Positions 9,640-59,817 of a stretch of DNA of 64,000 nucleotides are shown piece by piece. The notes under the pieces were generated by a model. It was not told where the DNA came from, ran no database searches, and worked only from the letters and a program-made list of their open reading frames with translations. This DNA comes from Aquimarina pacifica (lineage in GTDB: Bacteria; Bacteroidota; Bacteroidia; Flavobacteriales; Flavobacteriaceae): positions 1 through 64,000 of the forward strand of contig NZ_JACC01000012.1 of assembly GCF_000520955.1 (NCBI RefSeq), written 5' to 3'. The first letter of the stretch is position 1, and every line of letters begins with the position of its first letter. The translations under genes and the position numbers were made by a program.

Positions 9640-10340
9640 ACACAATTTATGGGACATTACTTTATAAAAGTATTTTTTGGTGTTGGCCTTTTTCTTTACC
9701 CTACTAATAGAAAAAATTGCGTTCATTAAGAATACGTTCCATTTAATTTTAGGGTAAATAACCTACCTTCTCCCCATCCAATAAAAAAATATTAATTTCA
9801 AACAAAAAGCAGACAGAAAGTTATTTATTACCAAACCTTCATCACACAAACTATTAATATAACTAATCTTATGCGATTGGTCTTTTTAAGTTTTTACTTA
9901 ATAAACTTTTCATAACATCGACTCACCTAAAACGGGAAAAAAATATTAAAAGTCAGCATTTCTACTGCACATATACGCATTAAAAAATCAGCAGTTCTTC
10001 ACAAAACAATAAACACATAAGAAATTAACTGTTTAAAAATATTATCATCAATATTTTGTTTGTTTTCTGATTAAATTAACAATTATACGTAATAGAAATC
10101 ATAAAATCTACGAGAATATCATTTTCAAAAAACCACTACCCTATTAACAAAAACAAACATTAAACCTTAATTACTAACACATTACACTCTCAATTTTTCT
10201 TTAAAAAAACTACACTACACCAATTTGCAATAAAACATATGGATTATTAAAAAAATGATGAAATCGAATAAAAAATAACTTTTTTTTAATATTATCTTGG
10301 TTTTTTAACACTAAAGGTGTTTAGGTTAAAATAAATCTCT
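9640..10340. other. 700-base AT-rich intergenic region
   Basis: No reading frame, repeat or hairpin that I can defend. It separates the beta-barrel gene from the GntR-controlled glycan locus and may hold long upstream regulatory sequence. Confidence 0.4.
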
Positions 10341-10348
10341 TATATTTG
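10341..10348 (+). promoter_or_regulatory. -7 promoter element of the GntR regulator
   Basis: TATATTTG matches TAnnTTTG. Its last three bases overlap the left end of a perfect palindrome, so a bound regulator would block the promoter. Confidence 0.55.
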
Positions 10349-10383
10349 GTGGACCAGATTGGTTAACCAATCTGGTCCACCAA
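10346..10383. promoter_or_regulatory. 38-bp perfect palindromic operator for a GntR/FadR-type regulator
   Basis: Two 19-base arms (left arm TTGGTGGACCAGATTGGTT) are exact reverse complements with no spacer. Inside are three TGGTnnACCA units: 10347-10356, 10359-10370 (TTGGTTAACCAA) and 10373-10382. TGGT/ACCA half-sites are known targets of FadR-subfamily regulators such as FadR, PdhR and UxuR/ExuR. The element lies between the -7 box and the ATG of the regulator gene, so autoregulation is likely. A lone AACCAATC half-site recurs at 11301-11308 before susC. Confidence 0.75.
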
Positions 10384-10391
10384 CCAAAATT

Positions 10392-11114
10392 ATGAGAATC
10401 AATACACAAAGTAATCATTTGTCCACCAAGGATGAAGTTGAGGCTGTGATTTCACAAATAAGAGAACTCATTATCACCAGACAACTTGAACCTGGAGACA
10501 AATTACCATCAGAAAGAGCATTATCCCAAAAATTTGGGGTAAGTAGAAATCAATTGCGATTAGCTATACAAAAACTAGAATTCTATGGCTTAGTACAAAA
10601 ATTCCCGAAGAGTGGGACATTTGTTTCAAAAATTGGTGTCGATGCTATTAATCTAATGATTTCTAACATACTACACTTACAGGCACCAGACTTTAAGTCA
10701 CTTGTAGAAACTCGATTAATTCTAGAAACAAAAGCAATAAAGCTAGCAGCAATTCGAAGAACAGAAACACAATTATATCAAATAGAGAAAGCACATGAAG
10801 CCTATATTGAAAAATCCCTAAAAGGAGAAAATGCAGTTGATGAAGATCTTTTATTTCACCTTAAAGTATCAGAAGGCAGCTGTAATAGTGTGATCAATTC
10901 CTTGATGTTAATTATCACACCAGAAATTATAACAAACTTTGTTAGTAATAAAATATGTGACCCTGTAAATTATACAACTTTGGTTAACGAACATCAAAAT
11001 ATTGTAAATGCAATAAAAAATAAAGACCCAGAAGAAGCTACAGCCAGTCTTAAGACACATTTCAAAGATTTATATACCTATTGTAATACTAAATTAAACA
11101 CCACGCCTATGTAA
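10392..11114 (+). CDS. GntR-family transcriptional regulator, FadR subfamily (FCD domain)
   Basis: A 240-residue DNA-binding regulator. A winged helix-turn-helix spans about residues 15-80 and includes the signature PGDKLPSERALSQKFGVSRN. The C-terminal helical FCD domain carries the expected metal/ligand positions: an Asp and LFH around residues 145-150, then NEH near 200 and KTHF near 220. FCD regulators usually bind sugar acids or other carboxylates and release DNA. The ATG at 10392 is chosen because the longer frame starts from a TTG inside the operator palindrome. It lies directly upstream of a SusC/SusD pair and very likely controls it. Regulators of this type guard alginate and other uronate loci in marine Bacteroidota, so a uronate ligand is a reasonable guess. 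Confidence 0.88.
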   Translation: MRINTQSNHLSTKDEVEAVISQIRELIITRQLEPGDKLPSERALSQKFGVSRNQLRLAIQKLEFYGLVQKFPKSGTFVSKIGVDAINLMISNILHLQAPDFKSLVETRLILETKAIKLAAIRRTETQLYQIEKAHEAYIEKSLKGENAVDEDLLFHLKVSEGSCNSVINSLMLIITPEIITNFVSNKICDPVNYTTLVNEHQNIVNAIKNKDPEEATASLKTHFKDLYTYCNTKLNTTPM

Positions 11115-11374: not shown

Positions 11375-14300
11375 ATGAAACAATTACACAAAAAGCAAAA
11401 GAACCTATGGAGTATACTATTACTACTATTTATATGTACTGGTTCTTACGCACAAGAAAACTATAATATTACAGGTACGGTAACCTCTGCCGGAAACAAC
11501 TCACCAATACCAGGAATCAGTGTCTTGGTTGTGGGGTCAAACACAGGGGCAGTTACAGATTTTGACGGAAAATATTCGGTAAGCGTAAAATCAGGAGATC
11601 AATTACAATTTTCTTATGTTGGATTCGCTACGCAAACGATTGCGATAACTGGACAACAAGTTCAAGATGTAGCTTTACAAGAAGATACTGAATCATTAGA
11701 TGAGATCGTAGTAGTTGGGTATGGTACACGTAAAAAGAGTGACATTACAGGATCTGTATCTTCTGTTACAACAGACGAATTAAATGCTTTTCCGGTATTA
11801 GATGCTGCTCAAGCTCTACAAGGTAGAGCTGCAGGTGTAGTAGTTCAGTCTAACAATGGTGGTGAACCAGGAGCTCCGATAAGTATACAAATTAGGGGTA
11901 ACACTTCTATTAATGCGAGTAGTAAACCACTTATTGTTGTAGATGGTTTTGTTGGTGCTACCCTACCCCAAGCAACTGATATTAAGTCTTTAGAAGTATT
12001 AAAAGATGCATCTGCAACTGCAATATATGGTTCTAGAGGGGCTAATGGAGTAGTTATGGTAACTACAAAAAAAGGTAGAAAAGGTAAACTAAGCGTAGAA
12101 GTTAATAGTACATATGCTGTACAAACTACTGCTAACGAAATAGATTTGTTAAATGCAGATGAGTTCGCACTTTATCAAAATTTGGTAAGAAGTAATGTTG
12201 CCTTAACAAATGGAGAAGATGCTGTACCATACACACAAGGACCTGCAAATACGGATTGGCAAGACCAAATATATAAGTCTGGTAATACTACAAATCATAA
12301 TATTTCCTTCTCTGGAGGTACAGAAAAGTCAAACTTTTATGCTTCTGCGAATTACTTTAAGCAAGAAGGTGTCTTGCTTAATTCAGATTTTGAAAGAGGA
12401 ACATTCTTGACAAACTTTGATGCTCAGGTTACAGATAAATTAAAATTAGGAATGAATCTTTTTGGTAGTAGAGGCGAAAAAAATGGAGCCGCTACACAAT
12501 CGAATGGTACCGTTTCTGTAGGTGGGGATGATGTAATTACTCTGGCTCTAAGATATGCGCCAGATCAACCTATATTCAATAGTGATCTTAGCTATAACTC
12601 TGGGAATACTGTAGGAGATCCAGTTGATAACCCATTCGCAGTTGCTACAGAAAGAATAGATGAAACTAAAACGGATAATTTTAGAGCAAACTTTTATGCA
12701 AATTATGATATATTTGAAGGTCTATCTTTTAAAACTACATTTGGTTTAAGTACTGAAAATAGAACAAGAGGGATTTATCTACCATCAATATTAGAACAAA
12801 CAGCGGGAGGTGTGTCCGGAAGAGCTTCGGTAGAACATGATAACAAAACAAGTCTTTTGAGTGAAAATTACTTGACCTATTCAAAGGAAATAGGAAAAGG
12901 TGATTTAACATTACTTGGGGGATATTCATACCAAAGAACGATTACTGAAAATTTTTATTCAGAAGCTACAGGGTTTCTGTCTGATGCATTTTCATTTTAT
13001 GGTTTAGGGAATGATCCAACAAATGTATTAAGACCAGATGCTTCTTTAGAAGAAGTAATCATTCAGTCTCAATTCGGAAGGGTGAATTATGACTATGATG
13101 ATAAGTACTTATTAACTGCTACAGTAAGAAGAGATGGTGCTTCTAATTTTGCTGCTAATGAAAAATATGCTATCTTTCCATCAGGTGCTATCGGTTGGAA
13201 AATATCAAATGAACAATTCTTAGCAGATAATGAAACTATTTCTAACTTAAAATTAAGAGCAAGTTATGGTGTTACAGGAAACCCATCAATTGGAGCTTAC
13301 GAATCTTTAGAAAAGTTTATAACTCTTTACGCTTCTAATAATGGGGAAACGGTTAGTGCAATTACAGCAGAACAACCTATTAATCCAGATTTAAAATGGG
13401 AATCATCATACCAAACAAACTTTGGTTTAGATTTAGGCCTACTAAATAATAAAATTGCTCTTTCTGTTGATTATTATAATATTGATACGAAAGACTTAAT
13501 TTTAATAAATAATAATTTATCTGAATATTTAGGTTTCACAGGTGATGACATCTTAGCCAATGTAGGAGAGATCAATAACAAAGGTATTGAAATTTCTTTG
13601 AACACTAGAAACATTACAAATGACAATTTTTCTTGGTCTACAGACTTTAACATAGCGTTTAATAAAAACGAAGTGGTAAGCCTAGCCAACGAAAGTGGTT
13701 CAGATTTATTTTTTAATGCTGCACCAAGTTATTTTAGTCATGATAGAACTTATGTACTAAGAGAAGGCGAAGAAGTTGGTCTTTTTTGGGGGTATGAATA
13801 TGCAGGTGTTTATCAGGGAGGTGCACTGCCAGCAGGTACTGCAACTATAGCTGGTGGTATAGCTGGTGATCCTTTATTTACTGATGTTCCTGATGAAGAT
13901 GGAGTTCTTGATGGTGAAATTACTGAAGATGATAGAAAAATCATTGGTAATCCAAATCCAGATTATACGTTTGGTATTACGAATAACTTTACCTACAAAA
14001 ACTGGGATTTAAATATATTCTTCCAAGGTTCTCAAGGTGGAGAAATTTTTAACCTGACCAATGTACAGTTGTTTAATGGAGATGCAAATACAACTAGAGA
14101 CTATTTTTATAGTGCGTGGACACCTACGAACACCAATACAAATGCTCCTCGTGTTGGAAACAATAGTAGTAGAGAAATTTCTTCTCGTTTTGTAGAAGAT
14201 GGTAGCTATATAAGACTTAAAAACATCGCCTTAGGGTATAATCTACCTTCAGACCTTATCAAAAACTTAGGGTTAGAGGGAGTAAGACTTACCGTTAGTG

Positions 14301-14479
14301 CGCAAAACTTATTGACTTTTACTGATTACTCTGGCTTAGATCCGGAAGTAAATTATTCTGGTGACGAAGGTGGAGATGATGGTAGTAGCAATGTATCAGA
14401 TAACACAGCCAAAGGGTTTGATTTTGGAAATTATCCAACAATCAAATCTGTGAATTTCAGTGTAAATGTAAAATTCTAA
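11375..14479 (+). CDS. SusC/RagA TonB-linked outer-membrane transporter
   Basis: A 1034-residue TonB-dependent transporter. A signal peptide ends near residue 26 (YAQ). A carboxypeptidase-regulatory-like beta domain (about 30-105, with GAVTDFDGKYSVSV) leads to the TonB-box region DEIVVVGYGTRKKSDITGSV, a plug domain, and a 22-strand barrel ending in the aromatic C-terminus NFSVNVKF. There is no N-terminal STN domain, so direct sigma/anti-sigma signalling is not expected, in line with control by the GntR gene upstream. It imports oligosaccharides across the outer membrane together with the SusD lipoprotein encoded 19 bases downstream. The substrate is not shown by the sequence. Confidence 0.93.
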   Translation: MKQLHKKQKNLWSILLLLFICTGSYAQENYNITGTVTSAGNNSPIPGISVLVVGSNTGAVTDFDGKYSVSVKSGDQLQFSYVGFATQTIAITGQQVQDVALQEDTESLDEIVVVGYGTRKKSDITGSVSSVTTDELNAFPVLDAAQALQGRAAGVVVQSNNGGEPGAPISIQIRGNTSINASSKPLIVVDGFVGATLPQATDIKSLEVLKDASATAIYGSRGANGVVMVTTKKGRKGKLSVEVNSTYAVQTTANEIDLLNADEFALYQNLVRSNVALTNGEDAVPYTQGPANTDWQDQIYKSGNTTNHNISFSGGTEKSNFYASANYFKQEGVLLNSDFERGTFLTNFDAQVTDKLKLGMNLFGSRGEKNGAATQSNGTVSVGGDDVITLALRYAPDQPIFNSDLSYNSGNTVGDPVDNPFAVATERIDETKTDNFRANFYANYDIFEGLSFKTTFGLSTENRTRGIYLPSILEQTAGGVSGRASVEHDNKTSLLSENYLTYSKEIGKGDLTLLGGYSYQRTITENFYSEATGFLSDAFSFYGLGNDPTNVLRPDASLEEVIIQSQFGRVNYDYDDKYLLTATVRRDGASNFAANEKYAIFPSGAIGWKISNEQFLADNETISNLKLRASYGVTGNPSIGAYESLEKFITLYASNNGETVSAITAEQPINPDLKWESSYQTNFGLDLGLLNNKIALSVDYYNIDTKDLILINNNLSEYLGFTGDDILANVGEINNKGIEISLNTRNITNDNFSWSTDFNIAFNKNEVVSLANESGSDLFFNAAPSYFSHDRTYVLREGEEVGLFWGYEYAGVYQGGALPAGTATIAGGIAGDPLFTDVPDEDGVLDGEITEDDRKIIGNPNPDYTFGITNNFTYKNWDLNIFFQGSQGGEIFNLTNVQLFNGDANTTRDYFYSAWTPTNTNTNAPRVGNNSSREISSRFVEDGSYIRLKNIALGYNLPSDLIKNLGLEGVRLTVSAQNLLTFTDYSGLDPEVNYSGDEGGDDGSSNVSDNTAKGFDFGNYPTIKSVNFSVNVKF

Positions 14480-14498: not shown

Positions 14499-16064
14499 AT
14501 GAAACTATATAAATATTTAGTCCTTTTATTGATCGGTGTATCAATGGTTGGATGTTCGGATTTAGTAGAAGAACCCGTGGGTGTGCTATCACCAGAAGGT
14601 TTTTTTCAGACTACAGATAATATTCAACAAGCAGTTGATGGTTCGCTCACACATGCTATTAATGAAGAGATTTGGGGAAGGAAACTTTCTATAGCATTAA
14701 TGTTACGTTCTGACATGGTAGATCTTGCCTCTAGCCAAACAAGAAGAGTAGAACATAATGAATTGACTACACTAGCGAGTAATGGAATGATCGCTCCGTT
14801 TTGGCAAAGAATATATCAAGGTATTGCCGCGGCTAATCTAGCTATTTCGGGAGCTGAAGATGTAGTTACGGATGATGCTACTAAAAACCCAATAACGGCA
14901 CAAGCATATTTTGCGAGAGCATTTTACTATTTTCATTTAGTACGATTGTTTGGAGATATCCCTTATATTGGTGAAACAGTTACAGATGTAGACGCTGCAA
15001 TTTCTATCAGTAAAACACCTGCAGCAGAAGTATATGAGAACATTATTGCAGATTTAAAATATGCAAAAGAATGGTTACCAGAAACGGTAGATTCGAGAGC
15101 GCAACCTTCTAAAGCGGCTGCAAGTTCTTATTTAGCCTTAGTATACCTAACGCAAGGAGAATGGCAAAAAGCTTTTGATGAAGCAGAAGAAGTGATTGAT
15201 AATGCAGGGACTTATGGATTGGCTTTAGATACAAATTTCCAAAATTTATTTAATGCAGACGTTATAGACAGCTCTCCTGAACCTATATTCTCATTAGATT
15301 ATAATAATGTAGAAGCTGATGATAATGCATATGATCAAATAGCACCAATGACAGGTATTAGATCAGATGCAAGAAATGAAGGAGGAGGATGGTCTGTTGC
15401 TGTTCCTACTCTTGCTGTATATGAAACATGGGATGCGGGTGATTACAGAAGAGCTGTAAGTATGGATGACGAAGCGAATCTGATCATAGATGAAGATGGC
15501 GATGGAGAAGACGAAGAAGTGTACAAATTTTACACGGATTTTACAGCAAGTGGACATGAGCATGCTAAAAACAACCCATACATTGCAAAATATGCACGTT
15601 ACCCAGGAGCATTTGCACGTGGAAGCGGTAGAGCGACAAGTCATAACTATTCAATGATACGTTATGCAGAAGTGTTACTAATTGCAGCAGAAGCTGCGGT
15701 AGAATTAGGAGACAATGCATCAGCGCTTGATTATGTTAATCAAGTAAGAGCAAGAGCAAGAATGGGTGGAGCTACCAAAACAGGTGCTGATATCGAGGTT
15801 ACTATACCAGCTAGTGATGTACCAGCTGACCTTACAGGTACGGTTACTGTTGCTGACGTATTAGAAGAAAGAAGATTAGAACTTGCTTTTGAAGGTAAAA
15901 GATGGTATGATATTGCTAGAAGAAGAATAGGAGCAGAAGTATTTAGCGCTTCTGGTTTAGAAGGTGAAAAGCCTTTCTTTACCGAGGATGACTATTTATT
16001 ACCACTACCAGAAGATGAGTTAGAGAGAAACCCTAACTTATTACCTCAAAACCCTGGTTACTAA
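14499..16064 (+). CDS. SusD/RagB glycan-binding lipoprotein
   Basis: A 521-residue surface lipoprotein with lipobox MVGC (lipidated Cys19). The helical TPR-like SusD core is evident, with the conserved YFARAFYYFHLVRLFGDIPY block near residues 140-160 and the C-terminal EERRLELAFEGKRWYDI block near 455-475. SusD proteins cap the SusC barrel and catch the glycan. It is co-transcribed with the preceding susC. No glycoside hydrolase or polysaccharide lyase follows, which is unusual for such a locus, and what follows instead is the relic of another susD. Confidence 0.93.
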   Translation: MKLYKYLVLLLIGVSMVGCSDLVEEPVGVLSPEGFFQTTDNIQQAVDGSLTHAINEEIWGRKLSIALMLRSDMVDLASSQTRRVEHNELTTLASNGMIAPFWQRIYQGIAAANLAISGAEDVVTDDATKNPITAQAYFARAFYYFHLVRLFGDIPYIGETVTDVDAAISISKTPAAEVYENIIADLKYAKEWLPETVDSRAQPSKAAASSYLALVYLTQGEWQKAFDEAEEVIDNAGTYGLALDTNFQNLFNADVIDSSPEPIFSLDYNNVEADDNAYDQIAPMTGIRSDARNEGGGWSVAVPTLAVYETWDAGDYRRAVSMDDEANLIIDEDGDGEDEEVYKFYTDFTASGHEHAKNNPYIAKYARYPGAFARGSGRATSHNYSMIRYAEVLLIAAEAAVELGDNASALDYVNQVRARARMGGATKTGADIEVTIPASDVPADLTGTVTVADVLEERRLELAFEGKRWYDIARRRIGAEVFSASGLEGEKPFFTEDDYLLPLPEDELERNPNLLPQNPGY

Positions 16065-16161: not shown

Positions 16162-16434
16162 AAGCACAGTACATCTTGGTCAATAGAATTAGATAGTGAT
16201 ACAACTAGAATACTTAGTGAATCAGATGAAATTAGAACCAGAACTGGTCTCAACCAATAGACCCTGGTACAATAAATAAACAGGCATTAATTTTTTAATG
16301 CCATCAAACAAGAGCGACGAGTTGAATTAGCCTTCTAAAATCACCGCTAGTTTGGTCTGATACATTATGAAAATACAAAATCTATAATAGGCTTGTATAA
16401 TTCTAATTATCTTACATCAAATACCAAGAAGTGA
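16162..16434 (+). pseudogene. Decayed C-terminal fragment of a second susD
   Basis: A single frame with five internal stops reads a recognisable SusD C-terminus: DEIRTRTGLNQ, then about 14 codons later NAIKQERRVELAF, a stop in place of the usual Glu, NHR, a stop in place of the usual Trp, then FGLI. Intact SusD proteins read ERRVELAFENHRWFDL here, so the stops are explained by GAA to TAA and TGG to TAG changes. Internal stops lie at 16258, 16273, 16288, 16336 and 16348; the frame ends with TGA at 16432. The motif variant differs from the intact SusD just upstream (EERRLELAFEGKRWYDI), so it is not a recent duplicate. Nothing of its N-terminal three quarters or a partner susC remains. Confidence 0.75.
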
Positions 16435-34713: not shown

Positions 34714-34800
34714 ACGCTTTCCTTTATTAACTACTCTATTCTTCTGATAATAAAATTTCGAAAAGCACACTATATAAGTAAGTTATTAAACGCTATAAAA

Positions 34801-34840
34801 AAAGGGCAATTACTTTTATAAAAGTAATTGCCCTTTTTTA
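34801..34840. terminator. Bidirectional terminator
   Basis: A 17-bp perfect stem (34801-34817 with 34820-34836) flanked by A-runs on the left and T-runs on the right. It serves the sugar-binding protein gene on one strand and the response regulator gene on the other. Confidence 0.85.
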
Positions 34841-59775: not shown

Positions 59776-59817
59776 AAAAGCCTTCTTACTTTATTTAAAT
59801 AAAGTAAGAAGGCTTTT
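59776..59817. terminator. Bidirectional terminator, 42-base perfect palindrome
   Basis: Arms 59776-59796 and 59797-59817 are exact reverse complements with no spacer, flanked by A/T runs. It ends carB on the minus strand. Confidence 0.85.

Follow-up and report, generated by a model that had tools for sequence, protein, structure and literature searches.

What does a 38-bp perfect palindrome do directly in front of a regulator gene? This question was raised by a 64,000-nucleotide stretch of the Aquimarina pacifica genome (contig NZ_JACC01000012.1, positions 1 to 64,000; referred to here as the window), in which the gene of a GntR-type regulator is preceded by two arms of 19 nt each (10346–10364 and 10365–10383) that are 100% complementary and loop-free. 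The palindrome is composed of three TGGTNNACCA units with an exact period of 13 bp (Table 1), its first three bases are at the same time the last three of the −7 box TATATTTG, and the ATG of the regulator at 10392 lies 8 bases past its end. The two 19-base arms, the three stacked TGGTnnACCA units, the start inside the −7 box and the end 8 bases before the ATG, all proposed in an earlier note on this DNA, were thereby confirmed. TAnnTTTG is the −7 consensus of Bacteroidota promoters, and we infer that the conserved blocks further upstream serve as the −33 region. With a probability of roughly 0.85, we read the palindrome as a predicted three-unit operator of AusR-type GntR repressors, which would silence the regulator's own gene and the susC–susD pair until alginate products release it.

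Table 1. Coordinates of the operator array, its promoter and the genes behind it in the window.
Feature	Position	Strand	Remark
Three-unit operator array (38-bp perfect palindrome, 13-bp period; predicted)	10346–10383
Operator unit 1, TTGGTGGACCAG	10346–10357		overlaps −7 box
Operator unit 2, TTGGTTAACCAA	10359–10370		palindrome centre
Operator unit 3, CTGGTCCACCAA	10372–10383		reverse complement of unit 1; missing from 11 two-unit orthologous promoters
−7 box, TATATTTG	10341–10348	+	box at same offset in 21/21 multi-unit GntR promoters (best 80 of 451 loci)
Conserved upstream promoter region (TTTTTTAACA ... AGGTTAAAATAA)	10301–10334	+	near-invariant blocks in alignment of 12 orthologous upstream regions
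GntR/FCD regulator, 240 aa, AusR-like accessory paralogue	10392–11114	+	Pfam GntR 9.1e-19, FCD 1.9e-19
SusC-type TonB-linked outer membrane protein	11375–14479	+	TIGR04056, 894.7 bits
SusD-type outer membrane lipoprotein	14499–16064	+	Pfam SusD_RagB 5.1e-35

The symmetry had been called rare in the earlier note, which is true when compared with 20 mononucleotide shuffles of the window, whose longest perfect palindromes reach only 14–20 bp, but not within the window itself, where two longer perfect palindromes of 42 bp each were found (34798–34839 and 59776–59817). Judged by eye from their A-run/T-run ends, these two are probably bidirectional terminators. A transcription terminator or the end of a mobile element was also considered for the 38-bp palindrome, as it is likewise a long inverted repeat and shares the window with two terminator-like ones; however, it lacks directly flanking runs of T or A, it shares bases with the −7 box of a promoter and its units recur as dispersed single sites. 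Its position and this recurrence at dispersed promoter sites largely exclude such an origin, which we regard as extremely improbable.

Triple arrays, with one mismatch allowed, were found 62 times in 55 of 397 genomes of the family, and not once with the reversed control. Exact cores were present in 20 of these triples, three of which are perfectly symmetric over 36 bases, namely the window array and one array each in two other genera (G401 and G410), while about 3% would be expected to be so if halves were paired randomly and about 5% from the product of column frequencies. The 38-bp symmetry is thus mostly the result of stacking palindromic units at equal spacing, and largely needs little explanation beyond three such units at equal steps. 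If symmetry as such were selected, be it as one long binding site of a higher-order oligomer or as a cruciform, three perfect arrays among 20, against about one expected, would be in keeping with it, but the other 17 exact triples deviate from perfect symmetry, and the two-unit arrays of the 11 orthologous promoters described below fall short of a perfect palindrome. Selection for symmetry itself was rejected on the 17 imperfect triples, and we consider it highly unlikely. That unit 3 became the exact reverse complement of unit 1 by template-switch correction of an imperfect palindrome is speculation.

The regulator behind the array has a GntR helix-turn-helix, with a Pfam match beginning at residue 17, together with an FCD domain, as expected of the cognate regulator of an AusR-type operator. 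It is followed by a SusC–SusD pair, and no lyase or catabolic genes were found in the window locus itself; the alginate genes sit at the locus of a paralogue in the same genome. Downstream of the intact susD, 16195–16410 contains what is left of another SusD-like gene, interrupted by several stops, which matches SusD from the second type of locus dealt with below (tblastn E 1.5e-5). The 8-mer AACCAATC is present 75 bp before susC and had been noted earlier as a recurring half-site; as neither this 8-mer nor any ACCAA/TTGGT was found in the matching pre-susC interval of the eight orthologous loci checked, its role as a regulatory site was abandoned.

Within the window, TTGGTNNACCAA with at most one mismatch gave 10 matches compared with 2.44 expected, the largest number in a shuffle being nine. 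A scan of the whole genome for the motif, as had been suggested in the earlier note, revealed exact TTGGTNNACCAA at 20 places in 5.26 Mb, against seven for the reversed control. Six of these lie inside long open frames, five are intergenic without a clear alginate link, and nine fall into seven promoter-like places, which comprise the window promoter, a second GntR gene with a unit pair 13 bp apart, three Alginate_lyase2 genes (one of them again with a unit pair 13 bp apart), one Chondroitinas_B gene and the gene of a secreted CBM6/PA14 protein. From the Pfam names, we take Alginate_lyase2 to be PL7 and Chondroitinas_B to be PL6-type. The CBM6/PA14 gene, located on contig C3 after a single site, matched none of the lyase families of Pfam or NCBIfam. 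The second GntR (contig C1) is 66% identical to the window regulator over 215 residues and heads genes for SusC, SusD, a PL6-type lyase, a TIG-domain protein and a PL17-type lyase, at a locus that also carries MFS, SDR, two PfkB kinases and KDPG aldolase. Presumably these families make up an alginate pathway, the PL numbers and the pathway roles being read from the family names. A palindromic TTGGTNNACCAA-type unit, as defined in the present genomes and not taken from a published AusR operator, is common to the regulator gene and to alginate genes, as an AusR-type operator should be. Two TTGGTCAACCAA sites 22 bp apart, and hence off the 13-bp step, were observed between convergent genes on contig C27 (C27:44281–44314, corresponding to L025:6082–6115), with no obvious gene behind them; two sites on C29 and one on C65 were looked at without an explanation being found.

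The window-type regulator and its upstream neighbour are present in 11 other Aquimarina genomes, eight of which show SusC, SusD and the next gene behind the orthologous regulator; the remaining three loci (L122, L124 and L129) are cut by contig ends. The 11 orthologues within the genus all share one 25-bp array of two units, placed at the same box, and among these promoters only that of the window genome has three. The earlier note had held that absence of the motif in front of the orthologous genes of relatives would speak against an operator; it was found there, at the same place, in every case. In units 1 and 2, five of the nine non-core positions differ from the orthologues, compared with none of the 16 core positions (Fisher p 0.002), and the distance from array to ATG is nearly kept, with 9 nt in the orthologues and 8 nt here, despite the added unit. 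In a tree containing nine of the 11 orthologues, the window regulator is placed inside the clade (support 96/77, not a starred branch), with an end branch of 0.26 compared with 0.003–0.074 for the nine. This internal position together with the length of the branch favours a gain of the third unit in the window lineage. It was also observed that the long end branch of the regulator (10392–11114) coincides with a rewritten operator.

The same branch length would suit a different occupant of the array, namely the C1 alginate-locus paralogue as its main ligand, with the window GntR having another target or acting as an accessory partner. Both regulators are present in one genome, units of one kind stand in the two promoters, the helix-turn-helix residues are nearly the same in an alignment of four sequences, and the window-type regulator is always accompanied by the second one (12/12 genomes). 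In all 12 loci, however, the array lies right at the promoter of the window-type regulator itself, which is the usual sign of self-regulation, and we therefore consider binding mainly by the paralogue unlikely.

The orthologous promoters also bear on a possible role of the palindrome in the RNA, as a 5′ leader hairpin controlling how the gntR message is translated or how stable it is. A 50-nt stretch starting at 10346 folds at −31.3 kcal/mol (z −8.46), but the start inferred from the −7 box would drop part of the left arm; from the presumed start at 10355, the value is −10.8 (z −2.16), matched by four of 200 shuffles. The two orthologous leaders that were folded, out of 11, showed no advantage over shuffles (z −0.03 and −0.01), whereas the DNA units are kept in all 11 orthologues and the motif recurs as single copies before other genes. 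A hairpin as the main function was rejected on the two orthologous leaders, and its likelihood appears very remote.

Like the regulator, the window SusC and SusD have diverged, with identities of 63% and 53%, compared with 97% for two further species that have this type of pair. Among loci L119–L128, two SusC–SusD pair types, about 39% and 26–27% identical between types, were observed in different species, filling one syntenic position downstream of the orthologous regulator. The locus is best described as one of putative SusC–SusD cassette exchange behind a fixed switch.

In a survey of 199 genomes of the family, representing 198 genera, the regulator (called at E <= 1e-40) was encoded in 50. 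Unit pairs with a 13-bp period, one mismatch being allowed, were found in 51 genomes, comprising all 50 with the regulator and only one of the 149 without it (reversed control, one genome; Fisher p 1.5e-46 with kinship ignored). The sole exception, G061, has a match to Alginate_lyase (PF05426) and may perhaps carry a more divergent regulator. PF05426, a family that also takes in lyases from outside the regulator loci, was matched in 39 of the 50 regulator-bearing genomes (11 being without it at 1e-10) and in 10 of the 149 regulator-lacking ones. Regulator, motif and alginate lyase genes are linked across genomes by these counts.

When the gap between units was left free from 0 to 30 in 20 of the 50 regulator-bearing and 20 of the 149 regulator-lacking genomes, 43 pairs were obtained in 19 of the former, with 39 at 13 bp, three at 26 and one at 21, and no pairs in the 20 regulator-lacking genomes searched. 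Each of the 26-bp pairs encloses a middle unit, whose core is exact in G076 and has one mismatch in G026 and G091, and thus these three fit the 13-bp step as well. The best 80 of 451 related GntR loci gave a similar picture: where exact units followed one another within 60 bp, they were spaced by 13 bp in 42 cases, by 20 in two and by 22 in one. Singles, pairs and triples were all found, corresponding to the one, two or three copies per promoter of an AusR-type operator. The 13-bp lattice is family-wide and is the most useful additional result of this analysis, and we do not claim it as unpublished; the relevant passages of PMC8286568, PMC7874173 and PMC8073546 do not give the sequence or spacing of the AusR operator.

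The position of the units relative to the −7 box was examined in the same best 80 of 451 related GntR loci, none of which is from Zobellia. An exact unit was present between −400 and +60 of the start of the GntR match in 55 of the 80 and absent from this interval in 25 (reversed control, 0 units). Strict TAnnTTTG was found near the first unit in 30 of the 55 loci, 22 times at offset −2 and eight times at +11, compared with 7% of random positions. With the relaxed TAnnTTT[AG], which was chosen after the promoters had been seen and to which the 7% control of the strict form does not extend, the box lies at −2, overlapping the first unit, in all 21 multi-unit promoters among these 80 loci; in the 34 single-unit promoters it lies at +11 in 18, at +12 in five, at +10 in three and only at +20 in one, with none in range in seven. 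Shared ancestry has to be considered in reading the 21 of 21, as 17 of these promoters are from Aquimarina (nine window-type and eight main-type), the other four being three Sinomicrobium triples (L197, L203 and L209) and one of Mesonia (L227). The two main offsets, −2 and +11, differ by 13, and a degenerate right half-site is seen 13 bp upstream in the single-unit promoters, with 2.26 of 4 bases matched, the highest score of 40 offsets (the next being 2.00 at −17). A more general interpretation, which we offer tentatively and at somewhat less than even odds, is that alginate repressors of flavobacteria recognise a lattice of 13-bp steps fixed to the −7 box, in which one to three filled steps tune repression via cooperative dimers lying side by side, and that promoters evolve by gains and losses of whole 13-bp steps, here from two to three.

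The sites, their 13-bp phasing, their position on the −7 box and their conservation in orthologues are established, and the window array would belong to a known kind, an AusR-type operator array, here at the gene of an accessory repressor. In the model that we favour, one repressor dimer would dock on each TGGTNNACCA unit. The array overlaps the −7 box and would extend over the site where transcription probably starts and over the leader almost as far as the start codon; repressor bound there should block RNA polymerase and thereby shut off its own gene and the susC–susD pair downstream. Most likely, by analogy, the regulator keeps its own gene repressed until it is released by alginate breakdown products, and the window locus would then open at the same time as the main alginate locus, where the promoter has the same sites; the occupant of the array may be the window regulator, its paralogue or both. 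Binding, repression and effector are in this model extrapolated from review statements on Zobellia AusR, and the simultaneous presence of three dimers, their cooperativity and the co-transcription of susCD are what we infer only. The DNA helix has 10.5 bp per turn, and a 13-bp step therefore brings the next unit about 86 degrees past a full turn, which would place neighbouring dimers side by side. A window locus without an obvious substrate would in this way become tied to the alginate regulon. Furthermore, the sequence rule of unit, 13-bp step and fixed offset from the −7 box provides a tool to seek alginate-controlled promoters in Flavobacteriaceae, and two versus three units at orthologous promoters offer a natural comparison of copy number and repression.

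Among the known systems, UxuR and ExuR had been brought up in the earlier note, in which the palindrome centre was likened to hexuronate sites of this type. According to the relevant passages of PMC4494728, UxuR sites have a 2-nt GT-NN-AC spacing and ExuR is among the regulators with 3-nt spacing. The earlier note agrees with our reading in an operator at a GntR promoter, in three stacked sites and in a link to uronate metabolism, and TGGT–ACCA half-sites whose GT and AC are 2 nt apart are shared with UxuR and GntR sites of the FadR subfamily, but the ExuR spacing does not agree, the units here stand in 13-bp arrays unlike UxuR sites, and the regulon points to an alginate/AusR-type system. The window regulator was rejected as UxuR or ExuR, being far below both NCBIfam cut-offs (51.4 of 442 bits and 51.1 of 396 bits, respectively). 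E. coli NanR is one of four solved-structure matches of the window regulator at E <= 1e-10. As described in the relevant passages of PMC8012715, three NanR dimers bind cooperatively and next to one another on a (GGTATA)3 operator, whose direct repeats are less than half a turn apart, and cooperativity needs an N-terminal extension of 32 residues. Unlike this arrangement, the units here are palindromic and 13 bp apart, and with a GntR match from residue 17 cooperativity is a prediction; on these grounds and with 99.4 bits, below the NanR cut-off of 260, NanR was rejected as well. The likeness to AusR of Zobellia galactanivorans is drawn from published descriptions of that system. In the relevant passages of these sources, AusR binds promoters via single, double or triple operator copies and the AusR/DNA complex is inhibited by intermediates of alginate degradation (PMC7874173), AusR represses most alginate-using genes (PMC8286568), and a duplicated AusR is noted at a Zobellia locus (PMC8073546). 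The system predicted here resembles it in combining a GntR repressor, alginate genes and single, double or triple operators, as far as described in PMC7874173, and differs from it in that the array of the window is located at an accessory paralogue with a bare SusC–SusD pair.
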